From Nanobdellota archaeon (GTDB taxonomy: Archaea; Nanobdellota; Nanobdellia; Parvarchaeales; Parvarchaeaceae), in assembly GCA_021811735.1 (NCBI GenBank), contig JAJZNK010000007.1, positions 1-35,792 of the forward strand: a stretch of DNA of 35,792 nucleotides, given 5' to 3'. Within the stretch, counting starts at the first letter, position 1, and every line of letters starts with the position of its first letter. The position numbers and the translations under genes were made by a program. Of this stretch, positions 3-35,792 are shown one piece after another. The notes under the pieces are model-generated. The model was given only the letters and a program-made list of their open reading frames with translations, was not told the DNA's origin and did no database searches.

Positions 3-1034
3 ATAATACAGTATACTTATAGCGTCCCAAGCATAGGAAACCAGATAATAAACACATCAGGCACAGTGGCAGGCACGTCAATATCAGGAAAACCCTCCAT
101 CCTAACCTCATATGAACCCTTGACGATAACCAATACTCAGACATCAGCCACACCCTCACCCTTCCAGCAGATGGTAAACATGACAAGCACAGATCCAGGC
201 TGGTCCTCAATAGCAACCTCAAATTTCGCACAGAACGTGGAGTTCTTCTACTACAACGGCAGTATAATCCCTAGCTGGCTGGAAAGCTATACAACCTCCG
301 GAGCGATCTGGTGGCTAAAGCTTCCTTCTATCTCTAATTCTATGGTAATCTACATGGGCTTCGCCCCACTCACAACCTCTCTTTTCAATAACGTAAATAC
401 CGGCGAGGCTCCACAGCTTTCCGCAACCTATGGGCAGTACGATGACGGAGCAGGAGTATTTAGTGGAATAAACTCTTATTATAACAATTTTAAAACTTCT
501 GTGTCTCTTTCTAATTGGGGGACAGGTTCGGCTTTGGCCGGTGGAAATCCGAATAAACCTTGTGCAAATAATGGAATGGTTTTCAATTCTACTTGCACAG
601 ATGTAGGTATAACTCTTCCATATCTAATTAATTGGACTTACGCTAGAGAACTTACTTATGGGTATTGGTCTGGAACCACATCTTATGGTAGATTCGGATG
701 GGGGTATCTACCAGCTGGGATTACAGAATATATAGCATCAGGTACTAACTACCCTTCTTTGGTAGCGGGAAATATTTCTGGAGGTGTACAGCAAGTGGGT
801 GCTCAAATTGCCAATAACAATAATAATTATACTTACCAACTTTATTATTCTGATAAAAGTTTTTATGAGATAGGTCCTACAGGCACAAAAATAATTTCTT
901 TTCCAACAATTTCCACTCTTTATCCCAGCACAGATCTTGCGATTCAAATGAATTCTGGTAATGCATACTGGGCTTATATCGCGGTAGCCACCGTACCGAT
1001 TGGAGGATATATGCCTTCAGTATCCTTTAGCTAG
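3..1034 (+). CDS. C-terminal part of a large secreted surface protein with a DUF2341-like domain; gene continues past the left edge
   Basis: Frame is open from nt 3 (IIQYTYSVPSIGNQIINTSGTVAGTS...), so the GTG at 66 is probably not the true start. 'NVEFFYYNGSIIPSWLESYTTSGAIWWLKLPSI...MVIYMGF...YDDGAGVF' resembles DUF2341; Thr/Ser/Asn rich. Confidence 0.7.
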   Translation: MIQYTYSVPSIGNQIINTSGTVAGTSISGKPSILTSYEPLTITNTQTSATPSPFQQMVNMTSTDPGWSSIATSNFAQNVEFFYYNGSIIPSWLESYTTSGAIWWLKLPSISNSMVIYMGFAPLTTSLFNNVNTGEAPQLSATYGQYDDGAGVFSGINSYYNNFKTSVSLSNWGTGSALAGGNPNKPCANNGMVFNSTCTDVGITLPYLINWTYARELTYGYWSGTTSYGRFGWGYLPAGITEYIASGTNYPSLVAGNISGGVQQVGAQIANNNNNYTYQLYYSDKSFYEIGPTGTKIISFPTISTLYPSTDLAIQMNSGNAYWAYIAVATVPIGGYMPSVSFS

Positions 1035-1099
1035 CCTCTTTTAACAGCAAACTCACAGATAGACTACAAAATTTTTGGCATAGCAATATTCGCCGAATA

Positions 1100-1107
1100 T
1101 TTATAAA
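1100..1107 (+). promoter_or_regulatory. TATA box of pilin-like gene at 1130 (leaderless arrangement)
   Basis: tttataaa located 23-30 nt upstream of the ATG, the spacing expected for leaderless archaeal transcripts. Confidence 0.55.
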
Positions 1108-1129
1108 CACCGTTTCCTTTATTTTATCT

Positions 1130-2320
1130 ATGCGAGTCAATCAGCATGATAAAGATAATTCCACAGCATTCTTGATGACCAAGTCAGGTCAATCAGCGCT
1201 AGAGTACATGATGACGTATGGTTGGGCCATCTTAATCATAGTCATCGTAGCAGTAATCCTATACAGCATGGGCATATTCAATCCAGCATCAAGCATCTCA
1301 TCCACGATAACAGGATTCTCAGCAACTCCCGTAAGCAATGCAATCTGCACTGCAAACGGAGTGTTAAGGATAGCAGTAGGAGATACCGTAGGACATAGGA
1401 TATTGATAAAGAACATTTCCGCAACGTCAAACGGAAAAACAGAAGTGTTCACCCCAACTTCAACAGTCGATCCAAATCCGATCATAACCTCTGGAAACAC
1501 ATACATATTCTCAATCCCGAACGTTTGTCCTGCTGCAGGCACACGATTTTCCGCTAATGTAAACATAAATTACACCGAGCCGACTACTTCATTTTCCACT
1601 TCGCAATACACTTCAACAGGAACAGTAACTGGAACAGTATCATCAACCATTATGTTTCCTTTTATGAGTTTTTTTGATGGTGTTAGTAGCAATATAAATT
1701 CTACAGTTACTTCAGGAACAGTCTCTTATATTACTTTGTCTGCTTGGATTAACATACGTAGTGTAGATCCTTGCTGGAAAAACATAGCAACACTTGTTCA
1801 AAGTTCTCCTTTGAATATTTTTGGAGAGTATACTGGGTGTAGTGCGTATGTAGTTTATAGAGCTAATTCTACTTTATCATATTCACCAGCACAGGGAAGT
1901 GTTGGAAGCGGAATAGGGAAGTTCGTATTTATTGTCGTAGAATGGAATGGAAATAATAAAGATGTATACATTTTTGACAATTCATCTACAGTTTACAATT
2001 CTCAGAATACTCTGTTTCCAGCGCAATTCTCCATAAATTATATAGATATTGGGGGTGCAACAACGTCAATTCATTTTGACAACACATGGGGTTTCAATGG
2101 CACTATATCTAACGTTCAACTTTATTCGGACGGACTTTCACCTTCGCAAATGTCGCAAATTCACAAAGAAGGAATATTCGGCAGGCCATTAAGTGGTGTA
2201 GGGCTTATTGGCTGGTGGCCATTAAATGGTACGGCAAAAGATTACAGCGGCAATGGTAATAATGGCGTCGCAACGAACATAGTATATACAAGCAATTATC
2301 CTACTACAGGGTTGTCATAG
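1130..2320 (+). CDS. Prepilin-like (class III signal peptide) surface protein with C-terminal LamG/concanavalin A-like domain, copy A
   Basis: N-terminal 'KSGQSALEYMMTYGWAILIIVIVAVILYSMGIF' (G^Q cleavage site plus hydrophobic helix); C-terminal 'LIGWWPLNGTAKDYSGNGNNG' typical of LamG-like domains. Confidence 0.8.
   Translation: MRVNQHDKDNSTAFLMTKSGQSALEYMMTYGWAILIIVIVAVILYSMGIFNPASSISSTITGFSATPVSNAICTANGVLRIAVGDTVGHRILIKNISATSNGKTEVFTPTSTVDPNPIITSGNTYIFSIPNVCPAAGTRFSANVNINYTEPTTSFSTSQYTSTGTVTGTVSSTIMFPFMSFFDGVSSNINSTVTSGTVSYITLSAWINIRSVDPCWKNIATLVQSSPLNIFGEYTGCSAYVVYRANSTLSYSPAQGSVGSGIGKFVFIVVEWNGNNKDVYIFDNSSTVYNSQNTLFPAQFSINYIDIGGATTSIHFDNTWGFNGTISNVQLYSDGLSPSQMSQIHKEGIFGRPLSGVGLIGWWPLNGTAKDYSGNGNNGVATNIVYTSNYPTTGLS
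1175..1629 (+). repeat. Constant-head repeat, copy A (partner 9098-9552)
   Basis: 455-nt ungapped near-identical match to 9098-9552, about 16 mismatches counted by eye. Confidence 0.85.
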
Positions 2321-2400
2321 TTCTTTTCTATAATACGTAAATTAAATAGCTTTAAACTATTTTTAGCAATTGTTAAATAGTTTTGGATTTTATCATCCAT

Positions 2401-3501
2401 ATGGTTGATCTGTTAGAGCACGAAGGAAAGAAGTTGTTTAAAAAGTATGGTATACCAATTCCTTCAGGATATCTAATAAACTCTACAGACGATTTGAAAG
2501 AAATAAACAAAGAGTCCATAATAAAAGCTCAGGTTCCTGCAGGTCATAGAGGTTTAAATGGCGGTGTAAAAAAAATAAAAAATAAAAACGAGGCGATATT
2601 AGTCGTAAACAGAATTAAGAAGTTAAGTTTTAACGGTTTTAATGCAAAATCCTTTTTGGTCGAGGAGGCGATAAAGCACAAAAAAGAACTGTACTTGGGA
2701 TTAACATTAGATAGAAGCCTAAAAATGCCGGTTTTAATAGTTTCTCCTTACGGAGGGGTTGAAATAGAAAAAATTCCGGCAAAGAATCTTGGTAAATTCC
2801 ACTTGGATATATTTTTAGGAATGTCAGAACATGTTAAAAGGGATGCATTTTCATTTGTTAAAATCGATGAAGCTCTACGTGATAAATTTTATTCAATTCT
2901 TGACAGTTTGTGGGATATATTCACAGGAGAGGATGCTGAATTGGTAGAGATAAATCCTCTTGCAGTGACCGATATCAATCTCATCGCCCTGGATTCTAAG
3001 ATTACTATTGAAGATGATGCGTTGTTTAGGCACCCAGAATATAAGAAAACTAACGATTATTTGGATCCGATAGAAGCAGAGGCTAAAAGTAAGGGAATAT
3101 CCTTTGTCAGATTAAGTGGGAATATAGGTTTAATTGCAAACGGAGCAGGTTTAACATTGGCTACCATCGATCAGATAAAGCTTGCAGGGGGCGAAGCCGG
3201 CGATTTTCTAGACCTTGGAGGAACGGATGATCCTTCTAAAGTAGCGGAAGCGATAAATCTTGTGAAAAAATCAAAACCGAAAGTCTTATTTATAAATATT
3301 TTTGGAGGAGTAACAAAAGCGGATACAGTAGCCGAAGGTATTGTCCAAGCTATAAAAAGTTCAGACATGCAGTTTAAAATCATCGTCAGGCTGAAAGGAG
3401 TAAACGATGAAAAAGGTAGAAAAATACTCACAGATAATCATATAGACGCTTTTACTGACATATCCGAAGCCATTAAAAAAGCAGTGGAGGCATCGAAATA
3501 A
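2401..3501 (+). CDS. sucC: Succinyl-CoA synthetase (ADP-forming) beta subunit
   Basis: MVDLLEHEGKKLFKKYGIPIPSGYL..., 'EINPLAV', 'FLDLGGTDDPSKV', 'LFINIFGGVTKADTVAEGIV'. ORF track start at 2383 is TTG; ATG at 2401 preferred, with ttaaata about 22-28 nt upstream. Confidence 0.93.
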   Translation: MVDLLEHEGKKLFKKYGIPIPSGYLINSTDDLKEINKESIIKAQVPAGHRGLNGGVKKIKNKNEAILVVNRIKKLSFNGFNAKSFLVEEAIKHKKELYLGLTLDRSLKMPVLIVSPYGGVEIEKIPAKNLGKFHLDIFLGMSEHVKRDAFSFVKIDEALRDKFYSILDSLWDIFTGEDAELVEINPLAVTDINLIALDSKITIEDDALFRHPEYKKTNDYLDPIEAEAKSKGISFVRLSGNIGLIANGAGLTLATIDQIKLAGGEAGDFLDLGGTDDPSKVAEAINLVKKSKPKVLFINIFGGVTKADTVAEGIVQAIKSSDMQFKIIVRLKGVNDEKGRKILTDNHIDAFTDISEAIKKAVEASK

Positions 3502-3502
3502 T

Positions 3503-4369
3503 ATGGCTATATTGATGGATAAAAAAACAAGTGTACTTATTCAAGGGATAACCGGTCACCAAGGAAAATTTCATAGTAAAGAAATGTTAGATTTAGGCAC
3601 TAGAGTTGTTGCCGGAGTGACCCCTGGAAAAGGAGGACAAAAAGTTAACGGTATCAAAGTGTTTGATTCTGTATACGAAGCTGTGGAAAAGACTGGTGCC
3701 AATTCATCGGTTGTATTTGTACCTGCTAATTTCACAAAGGATTCTGTAATAGAAGCTATCGACTCAGGAATAAAACTTATATCCATAATTACAGAACATG
3801 TTCCCTTTCAAGACATGTTGAAAATAAATGACTATGCAAATATGAAAGGTGTCACTATAATCGGTCCGAATTGTCCCGGGCTAGCGGTTCCAGGTATTGG
3901 CAAGATGGGAATAATCCCAAATTCAACGCTTCGGAAAGGAAACATAGGGGTGATTTCAAGAAGCGGGACACTGACTTATGAAATAGTAAATGTTATAACA
4001 GAAAATGGGATGGGCGAGAGCACCGTATTAGGTATAGGTGGAGACAAAGTAACTGGTTTGAGTTTTACGGATGCCCTAAAAATGTTTGAGAGTGATGACC
4101 AGACTAAAGCAGTCGTGTTAGTCGGGGAGATAGGTGGGAATGAAGAAGAAAAGGCCGCGGACTTCATAAAGAATGAATTTGGCAAGCCTGTAGTAGCATT
4201 TATTGATGGGATATACGCTCCCCCTGGAAAGAGGATGGGTCATGCAGGAGCGATAATATCTGGAAAAACTGGAACGGCAAAAAGCAAATTAGACGCATTC
4301 AAAAACGCAGGAGTTAGAGTAGCGAAAAATTTCAATGAACTATCGGAGTTCTTAATCAACAAATACTAA
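3503..4369 (+). CDS. sucD: Succinyl-CoA synthetase alpha subunit
   Basis: 'LIQGITGHQGKFHSKEMLDLGTRVVAGVTPGKGG', 'GPNCPGLAVPG', phosphohistidine region 'GHAGAIISGKTGTAKSK'. Confidence 0.95.
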   Translation: MAILMDKKTSVLIQGITGHQGKFHSKEMLDLGTRVVAGVTPGKGGQKVNGIKVFDSVYEAVEKTGANSSVVFVPANFTKDSVIEAIDSGIKLISIITEHVPFQDMLKINDYANMKGVTIIGPNCPGLAVPGIGKMGIIPNSTLRKGNIGVISRSGTLTYEIVNVITENGMGESTVLGIGGDKVTGLSFTDALKMFESDDQTKAVVLVGEIGGNEEEKAADFIKNEFGKPVVAFIDGIYAPPGKRMGHAGAIISGKTGTAKSKLDAFKNAGVRVAKNFNELSEFLINKY

Positions 4370-4460
4370 ATATCGTATGAGTTATATATAAAAATACAAA
4401 ATTTTAAATAGTATTAAAAACAAACCCTATTATAAACATTATTTTATATAGGAGGTAAAA

Positions 4461-4778
4461 ATGGAAGATATCAAAGGAATGGAACAATTCGATAAAAGAG
4501 TTTTAAAATCTACTAAGCCTGTTTTAGTCGATTTATGGGCGCCTTGGTGCATGCCGTGCAGATGGTATTCTCCAGTAATAGAAAAAGTTTCCGAAGAGAT
4601 GAAGGCCAAATTTGACCTTGTAAAAATCAATGTTGATGAAAACCAGGAAATCGCAGCTAAATACGGTGTAGAGGCTATACCCACAACTTTGCTTGTGGAA
4701 AAGGGCAGCGTAAAGTCTAGCGTCGTTGGTGCGATGCAGGCTGATCAGCTGAAGAGTTGGCTAAATAAGAACTTATAA
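4461..4778 (+). CDS. Thioredoxin
   Basis: 'VDLWAPWCMPCRWYSPVIEKVS' with CxxC (WCMPC); 'VEAIPTTLLVEKG' cis-Pro loop; Shine-Dalgarno ggaggt at 4451-4456. Confidence 0.93.
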   Translation: MEDIKGMEQFDKRVLKSTKPVLVDLWAPWCMPCRWYSPVIEKVSEEMKAKFDLVKINVDENQEIAAKYGVEAIPTTLLVEKGSVKSSVVGAMQADQLKSWLNKNL

Positions 4779-6628
4779 TGGTAGAATTTACTTGGATGAC
4801 CGGCGGTAAACAGGGCAGCGGCATCGATGCAGCATTGGGTCTTTTTTCGAGAGTACTGATGTCTTTTGGGTATAATATCTACGGTTATAGAGAATATTTC
4901 TCAAATATAAAAGGAATGCACAGTTTCTTTACGGTTCGGGTTTCTGATAAAAAGGTAGCCTCCATACCTAGCACTGTGGATATGGCAGTTTTTTTTGATA
5001 ATGAGTCGGTTTTAGGTGAAAAAAATGAAAGAGGCGAAATAGTCCATGACGGTCATGTCAGAGATGTAAAGGCAGGAGGATTATTGATTGTTGATAGCAA
5101 ATTGGACAAGAGCAAGATAAACAGAAATGATATAAACGTTCTAGATATTGACTTCGATTATATTATAACCAATGTCGCTAAAAAACTTGGAAAACAGACG
5201 AGCGAAGTCCTAATAGCTAAGAATATAATCTGTGTGGCGGCTTCATGCTATATCTTAGGATTAGATGAAAGCGCAACTATAGAGGCAATAAAGAAGGAAT
5301 TTTCAAAGAAACCTCAGACAGTCATAGATCTTGACGTATCAGTATCTAATGAAACTATAGATTATCTTAAACAAAGGAACGAAGTCGTAACTAAAGAAAC
5401 GTTGGATCACATTAAGAGCAAGGGAATTCCAGTCATAAAAAAATTGGAAAATTCTGGTAAGAGTCAGCAACTTTACATGGAGGGCTTTGCATCTACAGCA
5501 ATAGGAAAGGCAATAGCCGGCTGTAAAATGCAAATTTACTACCCCATAACTCCAGCGAGTGATGAAAGTGTGTTTATAGAGTCTCATCCAGAATTGGGTA
5601 TAAGAGTAGTACAACCAGAAAGCGAGTTGGCAGTTTTAGCAATGACAACAGGAGCTGCAATAGCAGGTGCCAGGGCATCAAGCTCAACGTCTGGTCCAGG
5701 ATTATCGCTTATGTCAGAAACTGTAACATGGGCAGGTATGAATGAAACCCCAATAGTCTTAGTTGATCATCAAAGAGGAGCTCCAGCAACCGGTCAGCCA
5801 ACAAGAACAGAACAGCCAGATTTAATGTTTGCAGTTCACCAAGGGCACGGCGATTTTGGAAGGATTATAATCGCACCAGGAGACGTGGAAGAAAGTATAC
5901 AGATGACTGCAGAGGCTTTCAACTACGCCGAAGTTTACCAGCTGCCAGTCATAGTGCTGGGAGAGAAAGCGATTTCCCAAGGATCCATGAACATGGATAA
6001 AAAAACAATAACTGACATAAAAGATAATTACAAAATCAAACGAGGCAAACTTGTTGAAAAAGTCGATAGTAACTATAAAAGATTCAAATTTACTGAAGAC
6101 AATATATCAGAGAGGATAGTGCCTGGTAATCCAAATGCAATATTCTGGTTAACGGGAGACGAACATGATGAATGGGGACACGTTTCTGAGGATCCCAACA
6201 ACAGGATAAAGATGATGGACAAGAGAAATGGTAAGTACCAGCAAATACTGAAGGATTTGACTCCAAATGAGAAGTTCACACTTACAGGAAAATTAGAAGA
6301 TGCAGATCTACTTTTAATAACTTGGGGTGGTCCGTCGGCGGCTGCAAGGGAAGCAATATCTGGTAAAAACGTTGCACTGTTGCAGATTAAGTTAATCCAT
6401 CCACTGCCAACCGAAGTCTTGGATATTCTTAAAAAGGCGAAGAAGGTTGCAATTTTGGAAGAAAATATAACTGCGCAACTAAAACAACACATTGCCTCCG
6501 TGACTGGGTTCGTAATACAAAATGAGATATTGAAGTATAATGGAAGATTAGTAAGGTACGACGAAGTCGCGGATGCGCTTGACAAAGTAATGAAAGGGGA
6601 AAACAAGGTGATATTAAATGGCTACTGA
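4778..6628 (+). CDS. korA: 2-oxoacid:ferredoxin oxidoreductase, fused gamma-alpha subunit
   Basis: N-terminal gamma-like domain 'GGKQGSGIDAALGLFSRVL' plus alpha domain 'YYPITPASDESVFIE...SSSTSGPGLSLMSETVTWAGMNETPIVLVDHQRGAPATGQPTRTEQPDL'. Start overlaps the thioredoxin stop. Confidence 0.93.
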   Translation: MVEFTWMTGGKQGSGIDAALGLFSRVLMSFGYNIYGYREYFSNIKGMHSFFTVRVSDKKVASIPSTVDMAVFFDNESVLGEKNERGEIVHDGHVRDVKAGGLLIVDSKLDKSKINRNDINVLDIDFDYIITNVAKKLGKQTSEVLIAKNIICVAASCYILGLDESATIEAIKKEFSKKPQTVIDLDVSVSNETIDYLKQRNEVVTKETLDHIKSKGIPVIKKLENSGKSQQLYMEGFASTAIGKAIAGCKMQIYYPITPASDESVFIESHPELGIRVVQPESELAVLAMTTGAAIAGARASSSTSGPGLSLMSETVTWAGMNETPIVLVDHQRGAPATGQPTRTEQPDLMFAVHQGHGDFGRIIIAPGDVEESIQMTAEAFNYAEVYQLPVIVLGEKAISQGSMNMDKKTITDIKDNYKIKRGKLVEKVDSNYKRFKFTEDNISERIVPGNPNAIFWLTGDEHDEWGHVSEDPNNRIKMMDKRNGKYQQILKDLTPNEKFTLTGKLEDADLLLITWGGPSAAAREAISGKNVALLQIKLIHPLPTEVLDILKKAKKVAILEENITAQLKQHIASVTGFVIQNEILKYNGRLVRYDEVADALDKVMKGENKVILNGY

Positions 6629-7541
6629 TGTTAAGAGTTTGACTTCGAATGAATTCAACGATTGGTGCGGAGGATGTGGGGACAGTGGAATAGTTCTTGC
6701 TGTAAAGAATGCAATAGTAAAAGCCAATTTAGATCCTCATAAAACAGTCCTAGTTTCGGGAATAGGGTGCTCGTCAAAACTGCCACACTTGGTTAACATT
6801 AATGGCGTGCATACACTGCACGGCAGACCAATACCATTTGCAGAAGGCATAAAATTAGCCAATCCAGAGCTTACGGTTTTGTTGGACAGCGGAGATGGAG
6901 ATACTTATGGTATAGGCGTTGGACATTTTATTAGTGCTGGCAGAAGAAACGTGGATATAAAATTATTTATACATGATAATGGGGTTTATTCTCTGACAAA
7001 GGGACAAGCAAGCCCTACATTGCCAGAAGGGAGAAAAACAAAATCTCTTCCAGCTCCAAATATAAACGGTGCATTAAATCCATTAGCATTAGCCATAATG
7101 TCTGGTTATAATTTCGTGGCAAGAGCACAAAGTTTTAAGGTAAACGAACTCGCAGATATAATGGTAAAAGCCATACAACACAAGGGATTAGCATTGGTAG
7201 ATATAATGCAAGGATGCCCAACTTATAATCCAGAGTTCACATCTTCAGCATGGTTCAACACTCATCTTAAGCCTATACCAGACGGATACGATGGATCTGT
7301 AAAAGACCCTTTTAATAGGGAAGAAGTAAATCAGAAGAAAATAGATGCGATTAAACTGTTGTTAAGTGAGGACCAAGATAACATGCATACTGGAGTATTT
7401 TTCCAAAATGAAGACCCAGATACTTTTGAAACTAGGCTTCAAAAAAGGAACATTCCGCCTCCTTCATCCCAAAAAATAACGGATGACAATGGAAATTCGC
7501 TTACTGATATAGAACCTTTACTCAAATCCCTGGAGGTATAG
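6618..7541 (+). CDS. korB: 2-oxoacid:ferredoxin oxidoreductase beta subunit (TPP-binding)
   Basis: 'WCGGCGDSGI', 'GIGCSSKLPHLVNINGVHTLHGRPIPFAEGIKLANP', 'GDGDTYGIGVGHFI', 'YSLTKGQASPT'. Confidence 0.95.
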   Translation: MATDVKSLTSNEFNDWCGGCGDSGIVLAVKNAIVKANLDPHKTVLVSGIGCSSKLPHLVNINGVHTLHGRPIPFAEGIKLANPELTVLLDSGDGDTYGIGVGHFISAGRRNVDIKLFIHDNGVYSLTKGQASPTLPEGRKTKSLPAPNINGALNPLALAIMSGYNFVARAQSFKVNELADIMVKAIQHKGLALVDIMQGCPTYNPEFTSSAWFNTHLKPIPDGYDGSVKDPFNREEVNQKKIDAIKLLLSEDQDNMHTGVFFQNEDPDTFETRLQKRNIPPPSSQKITDDNGNSLTDIEPLLKSLEV

Positions 7542-7543
7542 TA

Positions 7544-8692
7544 ATGACGGAACAAGTCGAGATAAAGGAAGGGTTGGATGGAGTATACATAACAAGATCT
7601 ACCATATGCAAAGTCGACGGCCAACAGGGGAAATTATATTACAGAGGTTATAAAATAGAAGATTTGGCAGAAAAATCATCCTATGAGGAAGTATGTTTTC
7701 TTTTACTGTATGGAAAATTGCCAAATAAAACGGAACTAGAGGATTTCAATAAAAAGCTAAAAGGAGAGAGAAAAATATCTGAAAACCTAAAGATGTTGAT
7801 TAAAGGGTTTTCAACTGCTAATACACTTGATGTTTTAAGAACTGCAATGTCAGCCATTTCTTATGACGACAACCAGCCTTACAGTGCAGATGAGACTGAG
7901 AACATAGAAAAAGCGATAAGGATAATTTCCAAAACACCCACAATCGCAGCAGCGATAGGCAGGTTAAAACAAGGAAAGGAGATAATAGAGCCAGACGACT
8001 CTTTAGGTCATGCCGAGAATTTTCTCTATATGTTGATTGGGTCTAAACCTGACAAAGAGAAGTCAAAGCTTATGGACGTCATGTTTATACTTCACGCGGA
8101 ACACAGTTCCAATGCGTCGACATTTGCTACACTAGTTGCATGCTCAACACTTGCTGATATATACGCTGGAGTCACAGCAGGTATGGCTGCGTTAAAAGGG
8201 CCTTTGCATGGTGGAGCGGATGAGGCTGCAATAAGAATGATGAGAGAGATTGGAAATCCGGAAAACACCGAGACTTATATAGAAGAGGCATTGGCAGGCA
8301 AGAGGAAGATTATGGGGTTTGGGCACAGAGTTTACAAAACATACGATCCGAGAGCTAGGATACTTAAAACTTACCTCGATAAAATAAAAGCAAACTCTGG
8401 AGAAGAAATAAACAACTTCATTTCGATATCTCTGCGTGCAGAAAAGATGATGATAGAGAAGCTAGGTAAAAGTCATGGGATATGGCCAAACGTGGATTTT
8501 TTCTCAGGTCCTTTATATCTTTATTTAGGCATTCGAATAGAACTATTTGATACAGTATTTGCATCTGCCAGGACTGTCGGGTGGTGTTCTCATGTGATAG
8601 AATACTGGAAAAACAACAAACTTTTCAGGCCTTTAGAAGAGTATATTGGCGAGCTGGATCTTGGTTATACACCTATTGAGGAAAGAACTTAG
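7544..8692 (+). CDS. gltA: Citrate synthase
   Basis: 'HAEHSSNASTFATLVACSTLADIYAGVTAGMAALKGPLHGGADEAAIRMM', 'KIMGFGHRVYKTYDPRA', 'FSGPLYLYLGI'; SD ggaggt upstream. Confidence 0.95.
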   Translation: MTEQVEIKEGLDGVYITRSTICKVDGQQGKLYYRGYKIEDLAEKSSYEEVCFLLLYGKLPNKTELEDFNKKLKGERKISENLKMLIKGFSTANTLDVLRTAMSAISYDDNQPYSADETENIEKAIRIISKTPTIAAAIGRLKQGKEIIEPDDSLGHAENFLYMLIGSKPDKEKSKLMDVMFILHAEHSSNASTFATLVACSTLADIYAGVTAGMAALKGPLHGGADEAAIRMMREIGNPENTETYIEEALAGKRKIMGFGHRVYKTYDPRARILKTYLDKIKANSGEEINNFISISLRAEKMMIEKLGKSHGIWPNVDFFSGPLYLYLGIRIELFDTVFASARTVGWCSHVIEYWKNNKLFRPLEEYIGELDLGYTPIEERT

Positions 8693-8998
8693 TGTCTATA
8701 GGTACTTGAAAATCTAAATCGTATCTAGATTTTATTAAAATGTTGCTAAACTCTTTTGGCAACTATCAATAGGTTACCTCCTCACTGAAAATAAAGGTCA
8801 TGAAATACCAATCCTTATTTTTCTATAATTCAAAGCTGGCTGTGGTTTATTCTATACAATTTATAGTCCTTGTCTTGACATCTCCAGTCTTGCTATTATA
8901 TCATAAAGCATGTCTTGCAGAGGCACTCTGTATTTTCTTATGAATGTGATAAACATTGGTGGGGCTACGAGTGAGCAAAATTATTTTATGCAATGTGA

Positions 8999-9008
8999 GG
9001 TTATAACC
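8999..9008. promoter_or_regulatory. 10-bp perfect palindrome GGTTATAACC upstream of the pilin copy B promoter (candidate operator)
   Basis: ggttataacc about 14 nt upstream of the TATA-like gcttaaat at 9023-9030. Confidence 0.25.
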
Positions 9009-9022
9009 AAATTTTGCTAAAT

Positions 9023-9030
9023 GCTTAAAT
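9023..9030 (+). promoter_or_regulatory. TATA-like element of pilin-like gene copy B
   Basis: gcttaaat, 23-30 nt upstream of the ATG at 9053; same spacing as copy A. Confidence 0.45.
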
Positions 9031-9052
9031 CCTCTATTTACTTATTTTATTT

Positions 9053-10270
9053 ATGCAAGTCAACAGGCACAATAAAGAGAAATCCGCAATTTCCTCAATG
9101 ACCAAGTCAGGTCAATCAGCGCTAGAGTACATGATGACGTATGGTTGGGCAATCCTGATCATAGTCATCGTAGCAGTAATCCTCTACAGCATGGGCATAT
9201 TCAATCCAGCATCAAGCATCTCATCCACGATAACAGGATTCTCAGCAACTCCCGTAAGCAATGCAATCTGCACTGCAAACGGAGTACTAAGGCTGGCAGT
9301 AGGAGATACCGTAGGACATAGGATATTGATAAAGAACATTTCCGCAACGTCAAACGGAAAGACGGAAGTGTTCACCCCAACTTCAACAGTCGATCCAAAT
9401 CCAATCATAACCTCTGGAAACACATACATATTCTCAATCCCGAACGTATGTCCCGCCGCAGGCACACGATTTTCCGCTAATGTAAACATAAATTACACCG
9501 AGCCGACTACTTCATTTTCCACTTCGCAATATACATCAACAGGAACAGTAACCGGTACTGTTTCTGCCACAGTTTTACCCTCTCAAGCAGCAGTGTTCGT
9601 CCAAAGTAATAGTACTGCTTCATATCTCTCAGCAAGCGTCCCAAACTCATTTTCTAATGGAGTCACGGTTTCTTTTTGGATAGATCCGATTAATAACGGT
9701 CGGTGGGGTGTTTATGGGAATTATTGGGAAGATGCTGTAAGTTATGGGTCTTGTGGTGGACCATTTTACTTTTTTATTGAAGCGGGTGCAAATCCACCAG
9801 TGGAGTCTTGGTCTGTAACTAATTCAACAGGATACAATTTCAGAGAATTTCCAGGTGTTCATTTGCATCCAAATGAATTCCAACAGTTAGTTGGTACATG
9901 GAATGGAAATCATTTGGCAGTATATCTTAATGGCAATTTAATCGGGACAAACGTATCTACAACCGGCCCAATAGTGCCCTCAATAAACCAGCTTTATATG
10001 AGTGGTACATCTTCCCTTTCTAGCCCAGCGTGTAATGCGCTTTCTAATAATTTAGCAGACGTACAAATTTATAATGCCTCTCTCACAACAACTCAGATAA
10101 AAGCACTTTACTCAGAGGGGATATCTGGCGGTCCTGTAATTTCTAATAAAGATTTGATAGGGTGGTGGCCTATGAATGCTACTGTGAATAATCAAGCGAG
10201 AGACTATAGCGGAAATAGTTATAATGCACAACTAACAAACGTTCAGATAACTAGTAACTATCCTAGTTGA
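9053..10270 (+). CDS. Prepilin-like surface protein with C-terminal LamG-like domain, copy B
   Basis: Same class III signal peptide and about 150-aa constant head as copy A; different body 'NGVTVSFWIDPINNGRWGVYGNYW...FQQLVGTWNGNHLAVYLNGNLIGTN...DLIGWWPMNATVNNQARDYSGNSYN'. Confidence 0.82.
   Translation: MQVNRHNKEKSAISSMTKSGQSALEYMMTYGWAILIIVIVAVILYSMGIFNPASSISSTITGFSATPVSNAICTANGVLRLAVGDTVGHRILIKNISATSNGKTEVFTPTSTVDPNPIITSGNTYIFSIPNVCPAAGTRFSANVNINYTEPTTSFSTSQYTSTGTVTGTVSATVLPSQAAVFVQSNSTASYLSASVPNSFSNGVTVSFWIDPINNGRWGVYGNYWEDAVSYGSCGGPFYFFIEAGANPPVESWSVTNSTGYNFREFPGVHLHPNEFQQLVGTWNGNHLAVYLNGNLIGTNVSTTGPIVPSINQLYMSGTSSLSSPACNALSNNLADVQIYNASLTTTQIKALYSEGISGGPVISNKDLIGWWPMNATVNNQARDYSGNSYNAQLTNVQITSNYPS
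9098..9552 (+). repeat. Constant-head repeat, copy B (partner 1175-1629)
   Basis: See copy A; a shorter part (accaagtcaggtcaatcagcgctagagtacatgatgac and atcatagtcatcgtagcagtaatcctctacag) is also in copy C near 35610-35700. Confidence 0.85.
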
Positions 10271-16894: not shown

Positions 16895-19012
16895 TTATAT
16901 ATGGGTGGCGCTTATTACCAATCCACCAACTGAAGCGAATATCAGCGTTACTATAAACGCTATGAGTATGTAGAGTATTAGAGATATCATAAGCATGGAC
17001 GCCATAGTATCCCTCATAAGGATTCTGTCTCCAGGCTGAGAAATCGTCGAAACGGCGTATCCGATAATCAGGCTCAAGCTTATTAGATACATACCTATTA
17101 TGACTTGGAATGTATAGAGTGGTATTGCACCACCGCTTAGATTAAACATGCTGAATGCAAAAGGCACAACAGAAGAGACGCCTCCGCTTGATGAAGTGCT
17201 TGCTGCGCTTTGTATTGAGTTTATGCTTCCTGACAAGGATGTAAGTACAGTTCCTATTAGTGTAGTTAGACCCACTACAATACCTGCCATGGCTGGACTT
17301 ATCAATCCTACTTCAACTCTCATTCCAGAGGTGACTTCTTCGAGCATCGAGCGGACTTGTTCCTCTATCCTTCTTAAGTTGGCAAGATGTTTCGATACGT
17401 ACAATGTTGCCACGGATGCATTCCTTACGCTTTTTGCTGCGGAGGATAGGAATATTTTTGTCGAAGCAAGTATCATGGGGGAAGGGAAAAATCTCGTCGA
17501 GCCACTGGTTGCATTGAAAAAGGCGTCTTTTAGTGACAGCCCCAGTTTTCGTATGTTGTTTACAGTTATCTCAAAGAAATCAGACACAGGTGTTCCTTTC
17601 ATGTTCTCCCCTACTTTGACCAAAGTGGCTTCTGGAGGGTAACCTTGCGCAAGAAAAGAACTCATCTGTGACATAGCGGCCCCGAATGAGGACTCCACGG
17701 CATTCAGCTCTTCTTCAGTTTCCTTTAACTGTATCACCGAGAGTTTAAGATAAACAACCATTGCGAACCCTACAGCTGCAGTTACAAACATTGAGATGTA
17801 TATTTGCGTGGGCCCGAACGTCAGGAGCATCGGGTAAAGAAGATAGACTGGGACTAAAAATAGAATGAATACCATAGCGGCCGGAACTAAAGCACTTAAG
17901 CTCACTTTCTTCTTTCCGATGTTTATGAAAAACCTACCAATTTTTGGAATATTAGGTATATTATCAAGGTTAGGTGCACCGAATCCGCTCGGTCTGGTAA
18001 GCAATTTGTTTCTTATAAGGAAATACACCATAAGCGGCAAGCCTACGTCATACATAAGTGCCAATAGGAGTCCGAAGTCCGGTACTGCTACAAAAGCCAT
18101 AAGCATCGGTGCAAGTACCAATCCTAGCACTGGCAATACCATACCTATCATATATATGGTGTTAAGCGGTTCTTTCAGGGATGAAGCATATTTTGTCATT
18201 GCCTCAAATGTTCCGCCAAGTATCCTGTCGGATGCCTCGTCAAGCAGTCCGAGCCGAGCTTCTTCAGTCTCCTGGGATGTGGAACTTTCAATCAAGAACA
18301 TCGCATCCGTGAATGCTGGGCTGGATTTTGACCATCTTTTCGAATAATCATCAAGCGCGTCCTTTATGTTTGGATATTTTCTTGCAGCGGTGTCCCATAT
18401 GATTTTCTTAAGGTCCAAAGCAAGGTAGCTTGTAAGGTTATCGGAAGCGAATTGCACGGCACCTTCAAGATTCGGTGTTTGCCTCATAAATATTACCATA
18501 TAGAGAATCATAGTTACCAAGTCACTTGACGCCTTGCTTAATCTTACTGTCATTTGCCGTTGTGGGAACATTTGTATCCCTACAAAGGAGATCACTCCGA
18601 GAAACATCAGGGCCACCCCTACCATTACCTGTCCAATTATAAGAGTCACTATCCCCACGAGCATCAACGCGACCAGTAAAAATATGCCGAAACCATACAA
18701 CTGCCTTGCATCAAAGTCATAACCCAAAAGATACAGGATAGTGTTTATCTTTTTTTCCTGTTCCTTGTTTATGTTAAACTTAATGGCTCTACCTATTGTC
18801 TTTGCACCAAAGTTTATTATTTTTGACACAGTCGTCGGATTCTTTTCCTTGAATATCTTGTACTCTAGCGACCGCAATTCCTCTCGGATATTCTCATCCT
18901 TTTTGTAAAGCTCTGAGGATACTACACTGTCCTTAGCATAGTAGTTATCTATGAAGTCCTTATCGATTTTTGTTCCGGGCACAGAGCTCCCTATTTTTTG
19001 CTTTTTAGCCAT
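16895..19012 (-). CDS. Type IV pilus / Tad-like inner-membrane assembly protein (TadC/FlaJ-like) with duplicated T2SF-like region
   Basis: 705 aa, multiple TM helices, 'SSDLVTMILYMVIFMRQTPNLEGAVQFASDNL' and 'MSSFLAQGYPPEATLVKVGENM'-type T2SF segments; overlaps and follows the TadA-like ATPase. Confidence 0.8.
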   Translation of the reverse strand: MAKKQKIGSSVPGTKIDKDFIDNYYAKDSVVSSELYKKDENIREELRSLEYKIFKEKNPTTVSKIINFGAKTIGRAIKFNINKEQEKKINTILYLLGYDFDARQLYGFGIFLLVALMLVGIVTLIIGQVMVGVALMFLGVISFVGIQMFPQRQMTVRLSKASSDLVTMILYMVIFMRQTPNLEGAVQFASDNLTSYLALDLKKIIWDTAARKYPNIKDALDDYSKRWSKSSPAFTDAMFLIESSTSQETEEARLGLLDEASDRILGGTFEAMTKYASSLKEPLNTIYMIGMVLPVLGLVLAPMLMAFVAVPDFGLLLALMYDVGLPLMVYFLIRNKLLTRPSGFGAPNLDNIPNIPKIGRFFINIGKKKVSLSALVPAAMVFILFLVPVYLLYPMLLTFGPTQIYISMFVTAAVGFAMVVYLKLSVIQLKETEEELNAVESSFGAAMSQMSSFLAQGYPPEATLVKVGENMKGTPVSDFFEITVNNIRKLGLSLKDAFFNATSGSTRFFPSPMILASTKIFLSSAAKSVRNASVATLYVSKHLANLRRIEEQVRSMLEEVTSGMRVEVGLISPAMAGIVVGLTTLIGTVLTSLSGSINSIQSAASTSSSGGVSSVVPFAFSMFNLSGGAIPLYTFQVIIGMYLISLSLIIGYAVSTISQPGDRILMRDTMASMLMISLILYILIAFIVTLIFASVGGLVISATHI

Positions 19013-21231
19013 AAATCAAACATGCTCTTTATATTGTTTCTTTCTGCTACGCCATATTCTTCTCTCAGTCTGCTCACTATATCATAATACTGGTCAATAG
19101 CAGATGAGGAGAATTCAGCTTCGAGCAACGATGGGTTCCTGATAGCACTTGCGCGGTCGGATATTGCTTTTAGTATATCGCCTCTGGCCCTTATATTTTC
19201 TAGCACTGCATCCCAGTTCCCTGCCCAATCTTCGACCCTAGACGCTATCTCCTTTACAATATAGCTGTTTCCTTCCAAGAGGTCATTCGAAGGGTTCAGT
19301 GTATCTTTATGTATGTCATATTTCACCAGATCTACAAATCCGTTTTCATATTGTGGATCGTCAGTCCAATCCTTCCTGACTTCCGTTATGTTAAGAACTC
19401 TTCTCTTTTCAGTCAATCTGTCCTCTGTTCTTATCTTATTAACTGACACTATCAGGTCGGTTGCCTTGAAGCTCGTCCTAGGAACGTTCAAGTCGTTTAC
19501 AACCCTATCAAATACACCATACGGGTTTTCACCATGTATTGTACCCATTACTGCGTTTGACAATGCCCCTACACGCATTGCTTCATAAAGTGCCTTGGCT
19601 TCAGTACTTCTCACCTCTCCAACTATAAGGGAGCTGTCTCCAAGTCTTAACGTCGTCCTTATCCCTTCATCTGCGCTCATTTCCGCTCTTTCTCCCGTTA
19701 TCGCGCTTTGAACCTTCAGGGACAGCATATCATATCCTAATTTTGTAAAGGAATCTGTAGGTATTTCTAGAGTGTCTTCGACAGTGATCACACGGTATCT
19801 TTTCATTAGCAGCAACATGAGTGCCGTAAGCATGGATGTTTTCCCTGCTCCACGCGTCCCGCTTATCAATATTGTCCTTGCTCCTTCTACACAAAACCAA
19901 AGCAGCCCCGCAGAAAACGGAGACAACATATTGTTATTTATAAACAAAGGGATAGTCCATGGTTTTTCCCTATGTCTCCTGAATGCTATGCTTAATCCCT
20001 CTGGTGACAATGGCCTCTGGGCAATGGCGACCCTAGATCTAAATGCGTCAGTTATAAGTTCTGTATCCAATACTGGGTGTCCTTCGTCAAGGGCCCGTCC
20101 GGACATAAGCCTGAATCTTGAGGCCCATGCGTCAACTTCCTTTGCGTTTGGTATTATATTGGATGCGCATTCTCCGTATTTTGAATGTTTTACGAATATC
20201 GGTGATTTACTTATTGGTGAGTTTATGTACACATCCTCAACCATATTATCTGAAAGCACTATTTCAGTCATTCCGAATCCAACTGTCAGTCTTACAAGTA
20301 TTCTTGCGAGTCTGTCCATATCCTTGAAGCTCATGTTATACTTGTTTTTTGTGCTTATCTCCTCAGTCATGTCTCTGCTTATCTTGAAGAACACGTCCCT
20401 CATCCTCAATGGATCGGTAAATTCATTTTCCTGCGGCCTGTAGTCTATAAGGCTATTTCTGACTTGATCTAGCACATCATATTCTTCTACGTTCAGTAAC
20501 AATTCCGGTGGCGACAAGTGATACAGGTATTGTGACATTCCTGGTATTCTATATATTGTTACTTCTGTTTCGTCTGCATCGTTTATCTTGTAATTCTCTA
20601 TCTCTACTGCAGACAGCGGAGGTTCGGCCATTATTCTAGTGTAGGTGAAATTAGGTCGTATAAGTGGTTTGAATATTGAGCGATATGGCTGCCTGTCTCC
20701 TATTTTGTATCCGAGTATAAGGTTCAGGTTTTTATTTACTATTTTTATGTCAGCTATCTCAGAGATCAACTGCTGGAATTTTTCCACAATAACGGTTAAT
20801 TGTTCAGAATCTACGTTTTCTTTTTTTACTTTCAGTTCTCTCAGAAATCTTAGACCAGACACATACGCTCCAAGAGGGTCTCTTTTAAGACGATTAAAAA
20901 GGACGTAATTAAACTTAGATACTGCATCTGGAAAGTTCTTCTGCGAATCACTGTCAAAGGGCTTAGCCACATCCGATTCAAGTATTATTTTGTATTTGTT
21001 TGCAAGATCATCCAACAAGTCAACCTGGTCTTTAGTGTATATGTAATTTCTATCGCTTACTATCACCAAAGACGTGATATTTCCCGATTCGAGTATCGCA
21101 TTTATTATCTTTTCAAAGACATCCTCGTTATCTTCCGGGTTGGGATAAAGAACATCCAATGGCACCTTAAAAGTAAGGGTTATCTCCCCCTCTTCTCTCG
21201 ATATAGAATAGTTCCTATTCTTTAGTTCCAT
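18991..21231 (-). CDS. Type II/IV secretion system ATPase (TadA/VirB11-like)
   Basis: Walker A 'ILISGTRGAGKTSMLTALM', 'VITVEDTLEIPT', 'LRLGDSSLIVGEVRSTEAKALYEAMRVGALSNAVMGTIHGENP'. Confidence 0.92.
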   Translation of the reverse strand: MELKNRNYSISREEGEITLTFKVPLDVLYPNPEDNEDVFEKIINAILESGNITSLVIVSDRNYIYTKDQVDLLDDLANKYKIILESDVAKPFDSDSQKNFPDAVSKFNYVLFNRLKRDPLGAYVSGLRFLRELKVKKENVDSEQLTVIVEKFQQLISEIADIKIVNKNLNLILGYKIGDRQPYRSIFKPLIRPNFTYTRIMAEPPLSAVEIENYKINDADETEVTIYRIPGMSQYLYHLSPPELLLNVEEYDVLDQVRNSLIDYRPQENEFTDPLRMRDVFFKISRDMTEEISTKNKYNMSFKDMDRLARILVRLTVGFGMTEIVLSDNMVEDVYINSPISKSPIFVKHSKYGECASNIIPNAKEVDAWASRFRLMSGRALDEGHPVLDTELITDAFRSRVAIAQRPLSPEGLSIAFRRHREKPWTIPLFINNNMLSPFSAGLLWFCVEGARTILISGTRGAGKTSMLTALMLLLMKRYRVITVEDTLEIPTDSFTKLGYDMLSLKVQSAITGERAEMSADEGIRTTLRLGDSSLIVGEVRSTEAKALYEAMRVGALSNAVMGTIHGENPYGVFDRVVNDLNVPRTSFKATDLIVSVNKIRTEDRLTEKRRVLNITEVRKDWTDDPQYENGFVDLVKYDIHKDTLNPSNDLLEGNSYIVKEIASRVEDWAGNWDAVLENIRARGDILKAISDRASAIRNPSLLEAEFSSSAIDQYYDIVSRLREEYGVAERNNIKSMFDLWLKSKK

Positions 21232-21255: not shown

Positions 21256-23664
21256 TTATTTATGTTTTTTATGCCTTACGCTTTCGTATAATACAAGGAT
21301 TAAAAGAATCACCATTACGATTCCTACAATTATGTAAAGTTCATAAAGGCCGGCAGTTATAGAAAATGTATTAGACAGAGAGCTTAGGTCCTGGAAGGAA
21401 AATTTAGAGTTGTATGCATCTATGGTGGCATTGTACGGCTTTTCAGGTAAATTCAAGAACGTTACGCCTCCTAGCAAGTTCGTGGAATTTTTGAACGAAA
21501 TATTATTCATGTTCAGTGTGACTTTTGCACCGGCTACTGGTAATCCAAGTATAGTTACCACTTTTATGGTCACGTCTGAAACTGGCAACGTTACATTTAT
21601 CTGGTTGTTCACTCCAGTATAAAATGTGTCACTTTCATTGAGGGTAATGTTATCATAATGTACACTATATAGTGTGATTTTCATGTTTTGAGGAGCCCAT
21701 ATACTATTTCCAGTGAATACCTCTGATATGTTATCAAAATTTACACTGAAATACATTGGTTTTATGTTTGAACTTTGTTTGGATAGAAACCTTATAGTAT
21801 AATTCTCCTCCTTTGTGAACCCGATAGAAATATCTTTTGCAAATGCCTTAGTCGTATTTTCTGTTGTATATCTGCTATTATTTATTATCTTAGGTATCGC
21901 ATTGATGTAAAAAGTCGAGTTAGAAAGAGAATATACATACCCATCATTGGATATAACTTCCGAGAATTTGCCGATGGAATTAGATAAAGGGATATTAGCA
22001 TAGTAGGAAACTTTTGTTGTCATTCCATCGGTCGAATTTATAAAATGAAATGTTGTCTTTGACTCGTTGAACCAGAAATAGCTTACGTTGAGAGGATACA
22101 GCACCTCTATAGAATAATTTGATTTCTGTATAAGGGTTCCATTGTCTATATTAAATCCTCTCAGGACTTCCTGATAGTATGAATAATTTTCCCTTTTTAG
22201 GGCGGATATTTTCAGAATGCTGCCGTTTTCGACGTAATAGCTTTTGTTTGCGATTCCATTGTAATCCTGCTCTTTTATCCTGAGATACTTTAGGAAGTTT
22301 ATACTCACAGTACCGCTTTGGTTCACGAAAAAATAAACGTTGCTGTTATTACCAGTTACTAATCCCGAGAACGAATTAAACAGTTCTTTCTGGCCAGAGT
22401 TACTGCTATTGCTGGAATATGCTTCGAGAGTGACTCTTTCTCCAAAAGATAACTTTAAGCTGACAGAATTCGAATAGTTTTTGCCATTTATGCTAAATGT
22501 CCCAGCTGCAGGATCGCTGAACTTTATATAATAACTGGCATTGGAAATTGCCTGCACAAGCTGGAAAGCTTTTGGGGACCCTAAACCCGTTACTTCATTG
22601 TAATTGCCATTTGCACAGTAGAGTCCGTTGCATCCGCTTGTTATATTGTTAAAAACCAAATCTCCCATACTGTTGTAGATTCTGTAAAAATTACTGTCTA
22701 TATATCCAATATCTCCATTCGCTTTTTGATTAACTAGAGCATCCAATGCGGCCATGGATGGAGCGGCAACGCTAGTTCCATAAAAACCGCCCCATTTAGA
22801 GTTTACATATATACATATTGGGGTTCCAGCATTGAATGCAACATCCGGTACCATCCTATAAGAACCTGTGTTTGGCTGAAAAGAAGGTCTTTGGAAAAAT
22901 TGGCTTTGGCCCCCTCCACTTCCGTTCCAACCCGTTTCCGATTCATACTGCCCACTGGAGTATACAGAAAGAGTGGTTCCTCCGACTGCGATGACATTCG
23001 GACTGGACGCCGGAAAATTTACGTTTGGAGTGCTATATGAATTGTACGCCCCGTTATCACCGCTCGCCACAAATATGTTTATACCTTTTGACTGGCCGTT
23101 GGATAATATTTGGTTAAAGTAATCTATGCTCTGTTGACTGTACCCCAATTCTGATGATCCCCAGCTTAATGAGATTATGTCCGTTTTTACATTTTTTATA
23201 GCATAGCTTACGGTATTAAATAGAAATGAGTCATTCGGGGCCACTATAACATATATGTTGGCACCAGGCGCAAGCGAATGGGCAACTTCTACATCAAGAG
23301 CAGTTTCATCCGTCCAATTAAGATAAGATGAAGCAGGTTTACCAAAAGGGTATTTTATGAAGATATTTGAATTATTTGTCAATGCCGGCAGATTATAATA
23401 CGAATCATATGCGTTTATGTCCTGCAGCAAATTCGGATCTCCATACGCTACTACGATAGTGATGTTCTGCCCGCTACCTTCTACTCCTCCATTGTATAGT
23501 GGATTAAAGTTATATGCGGTTTGTATATTCTGCGGTGTAAGAAAACTGCAGGTTTGCGATTGCATAGGTATCTGGTTAAAGTTAAGTTTTATGTTTTGTG
23601 CATGTGATGTAGATACTGCAATTAATACTGCTATAAGTGCCAATGCTAAAACGGTTTTATACAT
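21256..23664 (-). CDS. Secreted, membrane-anchored S53 (sedolisin-like) serine-carboxyl protease
   Basis: Signal peptide; 'ETALDVEVAHSLAPGANIYVIVAP' (ExxxD), 'ISLSWGSSE', 'IFVASGDNGAYN', 'VIAVGGTTLSVY', 'FYGTSVAAPSMAAL', 'YNEVTGLGSPKAF'; C-terminal TM plus basic tail. Confidence 0.8.
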   Translation of the reverse strand: MYKTVLALALIAVLIAVSTSHAQNIKLNFNQIPMQSQTCSFLTPQNIQTAYNFNPLYNGGVEGSGQNITIVVAYGDPNLLQDINAYDSYYNLPALTNNSNIFIKYPFGKPASSYLNWTDETALDVEVAHSLAPGANIYVIVAPNDSFLFNTVSYAIKNVKTDIISLSWGSSELGYSQQSIDYFNQILSNGQSKGINIFVASGDNGAYNSYSTPNVNFPASSPNVIAVGGTTLSVYSSGQYESETGWNGSGGGQSQFFQRPSFQPNTGSYRMVPDVAFNAGTPICIYVNSKWGGFYGTSVAAPSMAALDALVNQKANGDIGYIDSNFYRIYNSMGDLVFNNITSGCNGLYCANGNYNEVTGLGSPKAFQLVQAISNASYYIKFSDPAAGTFSINGKNYSNSVSLKLSFGERVTLEAYSSNSSNSGQKELFNSFSGLVTGNNSNVYFFVNQSGTVSINFLKYLRIKEQDYNGIANKSYYVENGSILKISALKRENYSYYQEVLRGFNIDNGTLIQKSNYSIEVLYPLNVSYFWFNESKTTFHFINSTDGMTTKVSYYANIPLSNSIGKFSEVISNDGYVYSLSNSTFYINAIPKIINNSRYTTENTTKAFAKDISIGFTKEENYTIRFLSKQSSNIKPMYFSVNFDNISEVFTGNSIWAPQNMKITLYSVHYDNITLNESDTFYTGVNNQINVTLPVSDVTIKVVTILGLPVAGAKVTLNMNNISFKNSTNLLGGVTFLNLPEKPYNATIDAYNSKFSFQDLSSLSNTFSITAGLYELYIIVGIVMVILLILVLYESVRHKKHK

Positions 23665-35562: not shown

Positions 35563-35792
35563 ATGCGAGTCAATCAGCATGGTGACAATAAATCTATAAT
35601 GTTTCCTATAACCAAGTCAGGTCAATCAGCGCTAGAGTACATGATGACCTACGGCTGGGCTATCCTGATCATAGTCATCGTAGCAGTAATCCTCTACAGT
35701 ATGGGTATCTTCAGCCCATCCTCGTCCATAACAACATCCTCCTCAGGCTTCTCCCCGTTCATAGTGTCATCAGCAGTATGCAGCCAGGCAGG
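35563..35792 (+). CDS. Prepilin-like surface protein copy C, truncated by right edge of window
   Basis: MRVNQHGDNKSIMFPITKSGQSALEYMMTYGWAILIIVIVAVILYSMGIFSPSSSITTSSSGFSPFIVSSAVCSQAG; same signal peptide as copies A and B. Confidence 0.82.
   Translation, partial: MRVNQHGDNKSIMFPITKSGQSALEYMMTYGWAILIIVIVAVILYSMGIFSPSSSITTSSSGFSPFIVSSAVCSQA

Follow-up and report, generated by a model that had tools for sequence, protein, structure and literature searches.

Dispersed modular pilin-like genes with shared heads and separately conserved bodies in a draft Parvarchaeota genome

Introduction

The pilin of Neisseria combines a constant N-terminal part with a changing C-terminal part. Another two-part architecture is found in the modular type IV pilins of Streptococcus sanguinis, where PilB carries a vWA module and PilC a ConA-like lectin module, and the LamG/ConA-like family PF13385 is among the modules grafted onto bacterial pilins (PMC8179133; PMC9934059). 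In Helicobacter pylori, segment-wise concerted evolution of babA/babB and homA/homB has been attributed to intragenomic gene conversion (PMC3960876). Among archaea, LamG-domain secreted proteins of Nanohaloarchaeota are proposed, in the accessible part of one report, to serve in cell-cell contact (PMC9563170), and pilin genes come up only in general terms in the accessible part of a 2023 study of Parvarchaeales (PMC10134863). How very small, host-dependent archaea attach to their partners is largely an open question. Here, we describe two prepilin-like genes, A and B, in a stretch of 35,792 nucleotides (nt; hereafter the window), which is the complete contig C16 of the draft genome G000 of an acid-mine archaeon of the Parvarchaeota. 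Both genes probably belong to a family of dispersed, modular type IV pilin-like adhesins in which the N-terminal heads are homogenised by gene conversion and the loci turn over.

The genome of this organism comprises 877,581 bases in 52 contigs and is 88.8% complete. It was compared with related bins of Candidatus Parvarchaeota and Nanoarchaeota, and 155 family genes from its own and related loci were taken for comparison within and between genomes.

Results

Genes A (1130..2320, 396 amino acids, aa) and B (9053..10270, 405 aa) are open reading frames (ORFs) on the forward strand, as are all parts of them given below, and both encode class III prepilin-like proteins. The initial annotation had reported an ungapped block of 455 nt common to the two, and this block is real: positions 1175-1629 and 9098-9552 differ at 16 nt, and the sole amino-acid change is I/L (ATA/CTG). 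Similarity ends, as it had also reported, at the TGTVTGTVS linker, downstream of which identity is at chance level, with gaps. Its description of the bodies as LamG-like but unalignable holds for the DNA beyond the linker, but homology is present, both bodies being of the LamG/pentraxin type. Signal helix and head, of a type here called H1, occupy 1175..1642 in A and 9098..9565 in B (99% identical in protein), and are followed by the bodies at 1643..2317 and 9566..10267, respectively. In A, the homogenised tract reaches to about 1609 and is followed by the end of the head domain. Between the two heads, the non-synonymous divergence (dN) is 0.004 and the synonymous divergence (dS) 0.186. The differences amount to 33.3% in the leader, 3.4% in the tract, and 18.2% in the last 33 nt of the head, where the protein is nevertheless identical, and the tract has sharp edges on both sides (Fisher p = 2e-9 on the leader side and 0.002 on the head-end side). 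Both edges fall within homologous yet diverged sequence and are of the kind that a conversion tract would leave behind.

Class III leaders end in G, A or S, after which come some 20 hydrophobic residues; the residue at +5 is often charged (PMC4371748). The leader found here reads KSG|QSALEYMMTYGWAILIIVIVAVILYSMGIF, with G, S or A at -1 and E at +5 in the copies read. In gene A, the signal helix QSALEYMMTYGWAILIIVIVAVILYSMGIF lies at 1190..1279, with the mature N-terminus expected at Q. The AlphaFold model of A, built with 63 relatives (predicted local distance difference test, pLDDT, 79.8), has a helix (residues 6-29), then a head that is predicted well as a beta-sandwich (residues 42-152), and finally a second beta-sandwich, ConA-like, that makes up the body and includes a region of low confidence at residues 197-238. 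Foldseek relates this predicted body to pentraxins (CRP) and laminin LG domains, and A to the flagellar-like pilus 8fk7 of Pyrobaculum (E 7.4e-4, with a low template modelling score of 0.39 on the target). Laminin_G_3 is matched by A at E=1.8e-4, which is below the curated cut-off, by B at E=1.3e-15, and by 55 of the 63 LamG-type members. In a second set, DUF2341 is matched in 24 of 43 members, and beta-propellers occur in some members from other species; the AlphaFold model of the DUF2341 type was weak (pLDDT 70.9, predicted template modelling score 0.47) and was not used for claims. A C-terminal domain that is not specific to pilus biology is therefore present, as in modular pilins, and ligand binding by the bodies would be a prediction at the level of fold similarity to pentraxin and LamG domains only. 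The LamG-type C-termini (2210-2317 and 10150-10267) contain the motif WWPLxGxxxDYSGNxNNG, which we take to resemble the sequence commonly found ahead of a LamG domain, and its C-terminal position suggests a circularly permuted lectin fold.

The initial annotation had allowed that A and B might prove to be the only two heads, but far more were found, with 22 head matches in the genome at the DNA level and 30 at the protein level, 5-35 per genome in 27 other genomes of the genus, and 0-5 in relatives outside the genus. The modular surface-display repertoire that it had proposed is borne out across genome and genus as shared pilin-type heads with differing bodies of ligand-binding type. The copies within the genome form four or more groups of near-identical heads (contigs are given by number, with positions where needed), in addition to single types: H1 (A, B, C28, C40 and C7), H2 (C8, C52, C18:33643 and C4), H3 (C41, C18:25606, the C15 end, C20 and C26), and H4 (C36 twice and the ends of C16 and C46). 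Head types differ by 40-60% in protein. Paired copies within a genome are 85-97% identical in DNA up to a point, 380-480 nt from the start in the LamG type and 820-920 nt in the DUF2341 type, after which they can no longer be aligned; measured per 20 codons, the shared part mostly differs by 0-20%, the body by 50-65%. This step profile was seen in G000 and in at least six other species (G003, G004, G005, G006, G012 and G016). Candidates for the main pilus subunit are head-only members without a body, which occur in several genomes (L062 at G000:C3:54921-55400, and genes of 150-170 aa in relatives). In one pair of family genes, L160 and L162 (G004_08 and G004_09), both ends are 94-96% identical and the middle differs, resembling a cassette-like exchange. 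A search of viral contigs with the head profile found no relatives and thus gave no hint that viruses carry the family.

The 30-residue signal helix is identical in 10 of the 10 heads of this genome that were aligned. Apart from this helix, heads of different types or species are only about 40-75% identical, which does not agree with the strongly constrained head that had been assumed. Head dS is 0.12-0.28 within a genome and near saturation between species (1.4 for G004_02 and G012_10), and the head tree contains tight within-genome clusters in many species. The conflict between heads and bodies was tested with approximately unbiased (AU) quartet tests. Heads of G004 and G012 group by species, the alternatives being worse by 95 log units (AU p <1e-60), whereas the bodies of the same genes group by counterpart (110 log units, AU p <0.001). 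The quartet of C52 and C18 with G006_10 and G021_04 gave 35.6 log units for heads and 121 for bodies, and that of C52 and C8 with G006 gave 70.8 and 11.8, respectively; in the quartet of gene B, the bodies reject grouping by genome (AU p 0.007). The head was closer by at least 10 points to a paralogue of its own genome in 19 of the 73 genes that have a body counterpart in another genome.

The bodies are 50-77% identical to their counterparts in other species, and citrate synthase is about 60-80% identical between the same genomes, so the bodies appear to be about as conserved as this core enzyme and, by the same measure, would be older than the shared heads. The body of B is 59% identical to that of G004_07 over 222 aa (heads 46%), the C52 body 75% identical to that of G006_10 (heads 54%), the C7 body 66% identical to that of G012_04 (heads 50% over the 44 residues left), and the C40 body 50% identical to that of G006_02 (heads 52%). 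The body of A has no full-length counterpart among the other genomes sampled. Between closer species, body dN is 0.03-0.11 against a dS of 0.13-0.85. Heads and bodies do not diverge alike, contrary to what the plain old duplication that had been envisaged would predict. The bodies may be called exchangeable, as was first suggested, over evolutionary time, but each is a module of long standing that is conserved in its own right, with counterparts across species, and is not hypervariable. Because head (73%) and body (69%) of C28 both match the single gene G026_01, C28 is a candidate for the original owner of the H1 head.

Promoter and leader form a third, separately shared block. In gene A, this block spans 1096..1179 with a TATA-like TTTATAAA and the codons MRVNQHDKDNSTAFLMT, and ahead of the signal helix it matches C41 and C3:32168, which carry other heads, at 94-95% identity over 80-84 nt; the corresponding blocks of A and B are only 79% identical over 47 nt. 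C28 and C18:25606 have leader and signal helix in common and then continue into unrelated heads. Full copies have their own start codon and upstream region. The sites of the two genes differ among relatives: 3' of citrate synthase, where B lies, the following conserved gene of G003 begins 80 nt on, a transporter-like gene is present in G025, and neither site has a pilin; upstream of sucC, where A lies, G009 and G003 place a DUF2341-type body gene directly beside sucC and lack A, and the tails of these genes align with the tail of the G000 gene only in short stretches. The counterpart of the B body in G004 (L133) also lies near citrate synthase, on the opposite side from B (window 7544-10270), which may be chance or an old linkage.

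Two further family members lie at the ends of the window. A body (DUF2341, E=0.0013, below cut-off, plus a variable tail) at 3..1034 on the forward strand has lost its head at the contig start and, in its constant part, shares 90% identity with the C18:25606 copy; at 35563..35790 on the forward strand, a head match of type H4 is truncated by the contig end. Machinery for processing and assembly is present in the genome, namely a type II/IV secretion-type assembly ATPase in the window (18991..21231, reverse strand; PF00437 T2SSE, E=1.9e-16) and a prepilin peptidase A24 (PF01478) on C47. The multi-pass hydrophobic product of 16895..19012 on the reverse strand, whose gene overlaps that of the ATPase, is probably a TadC/PilC-like membrane platform protein of a type IV pilus-type system, as assigned from its position and our reading of its sequence, without a Pfam match. 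A large protein predicted to be a secreted protease of the subtilase family (21256-23664) adjoins the ATPase and platform genes.

Discussion

We infer that gene conversion is the mechanism, co-assembly the reason, and adhesion the function behind this family. Each protein would begin with a prepilin leader and an invariant signal helix, followed by a pilin head of beta-sandwich fold and a C-terminal body of ligand-binding type (LamG/pentraxin, DUF2341 with a variable beta domain, or, in some other species, beta-propellers). The heads of a species would be homogenised repeatedly by ectopic homologous recombination (gene conversion) among copies at dispersed sites, the tracts being bounded near the junction of head and body and within the leader. 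Promoter/leader blocks would be swapped separately, and copies would come and go at given genomic sites. The heads may dock into a common filament or membrane site, or a small number of them, so that their interfaces would have to match, and each body would bring its own binding specificity, with host archaea or polymers of the community as the probable targets; recognition of a host is plausible.

Several observations weigh against this account. Every genome used is a draft metagenome bin, and in three copies of G000, gaps of N lie inside or at the head. The quartets of B and C40 are weak as tests of the heads, since the other species has a different head type, and for C40 the body data, too, leave the alternative standing (AU p 0.10). 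The heads of C28 and G004_11 leave their quartet undecided, and those of G016_01 and G016_02 follow their bodies. In 21 of the 73 genes, the head is closer to that of the body counterpart, the reverse of what was found in 19, so homogenisation appears to be common but patchy. Finally, body counterparts mostly share no flanking ORF over the few kilobases examined, although one close pair does, and these data therefore do not separate conversion in place from relocation or transfer between species; conversion is favoured but not proven.

The same lack of synteny speaks for a rather unlikely account, in which a resident head was duplicated onto bodies gained elsewhere, including from other species, with little gene conversion. 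Such capture or fusion would fit the near relatives without a pilin gene at the sites of A and B, and the C7 body, which is 66% identical to its counterpart in G012 when citrate synthase there is 60% identical. It does not simply explain how G004 and G012 each hold two body lineages with heads homogenised per species, or why the edges of the tract between A and B fall inside homologous, diverged sequence. Quite unlikely, in our estimate, is a scheme by which promoter/leader, head, and body recombine as three modules fast enough within populations of a host-dependent archaeon to switch the partners or host surface glycans bound. If it were true, it would be an archaeal counterpart of adhesin phase or antigenic variation, built on pilins.

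A switch of the pilE/pilS kind, which would copy silent body cassettes behind an expressed head, shares with our data a constant N-terminal part and many different C-terminal parts, but it is very improbable given the start codons and upstream regions that full copies have of their own and the conservation of bodies between species. No intact headless cassette was found among the LamG and DUF2341 matches checked in the draft genome, which also counts against such a switch: each LamG match lies on a headed gene, follows a different start of class III type, or is interrupted by a contig end or N gap, and of the DUF2341 matches, those on C23, C46 and C7 are cut by contig ends and that on C33 has a different N-terminal sequence. 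Recent duplication of a whole gene, followed by very fast divergence of the body under diversifying selection, would account for the close heads and distant bodies of A and B; it is largely refuted and now has very little probability, since cross-species body counterparts predate the shared heads and have dN well below dS, and head and body topologies reject one another.

Extreme purifying selection as the sole cause of head similarity agrees with the invariant signal helix and the low head dN, and it may hold for the protein sequence of that helix. For the beta-sandwich head it is refuted by synonymous sites that are near-identical within a genome and near saturation between species and by the protein divergence among head types, and as a general account it is hardly tenable; instead of constraint alone, as the initial annotation had it, repeated homogenisation within genomes together with purifying selection appears to keep the heads alike. 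Scarcely credible as well is an assembly artefact, with repeats collapsed or misjoined in the bin, to which the N gaps and contig ends in family genes might point, because differences at 3-10% of sites show the heads not to be collapsed reads, the window sequence is free of N, and the same pattern occurs in independently assembled genomes.

About 12 contig ends of G000 do fall inside family genes (both ends of C16, C7 and C46, and ends of C20, C36, C4, C23, C15, C26 and others), so the family itself probably fragments the assembly, and short-read bins of such archaea should be expected to break, and possibly to misjoin, at modular pilin genes. If gene conversion of dispersed modular adhesins is accepted, a genome of less than 1 Mb devotes more than 20 genes to one such family, in which the part for assembly would be kept alike by recombination and the parts for binding remain distinct and conserved. 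The family provides a concrete list of candidate attachment proteins and predicts co-assembly of shared heads, and the relation of body repertoire to host range becomes testable. No account of such an archaeal mosaic was found in the openly accessible literature, with most subscription papers outside the search.

Like pilE/pilS of Neisseria, where gene conversion drives the change, the genes described here combine a constant N-terminal with a changing C-terminal part; unlike in Neisseria, no silent cassettes were found, conversion seemingly acts on the head, and the bodies are conserved between species. In babA/babB and homA/homB of H. pylori, one part of the adhesin is likewise alike within a strain and the other alike between strains, but these are few paralogues of bacterial outer-membrane adhesins homogenised at the 3-prime end, whereas here 5-prime pilin heads, many copies, and several body folds are involved (PMC3960876). 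The adhesion pilins PilA1-6 of Haloferax volcanii are also archaeal and have an almost completely conserved N-terminal H-domain in common; their conservation concerns this hydrophobic segment, whereas here it extends, at the DNA level, to a beta-sandwich head of about 110 residues, which is followed by large, separate C-terminal modules (PMC4371748). The Nanohaloarchaeota are likewise DPANN archaea with LamG-domain secreted proteins, for which the accessible part of the report describes no head-body mosaic or concerted evolution (PMC9563170). The modular pilins of S. sanguinis share with this family the class III signal peptide and pilin module, the short linker, and the C-terminal binding module; their pil locus, however, encodes five prepilins, two of them modular, whereas here a small archaeal genome can hold 20-35 dispersed copies, whose heads are homogenised within a species and whose bodies stay distinct (PMC8179133; PMC9934059). 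The parts are thus of known kinds, and it is their combination, with many dispersed modular pilins in a tiny archaeon, heads alike per species, bodies conserved between species, and promoters swapped separately, that appears to be new.

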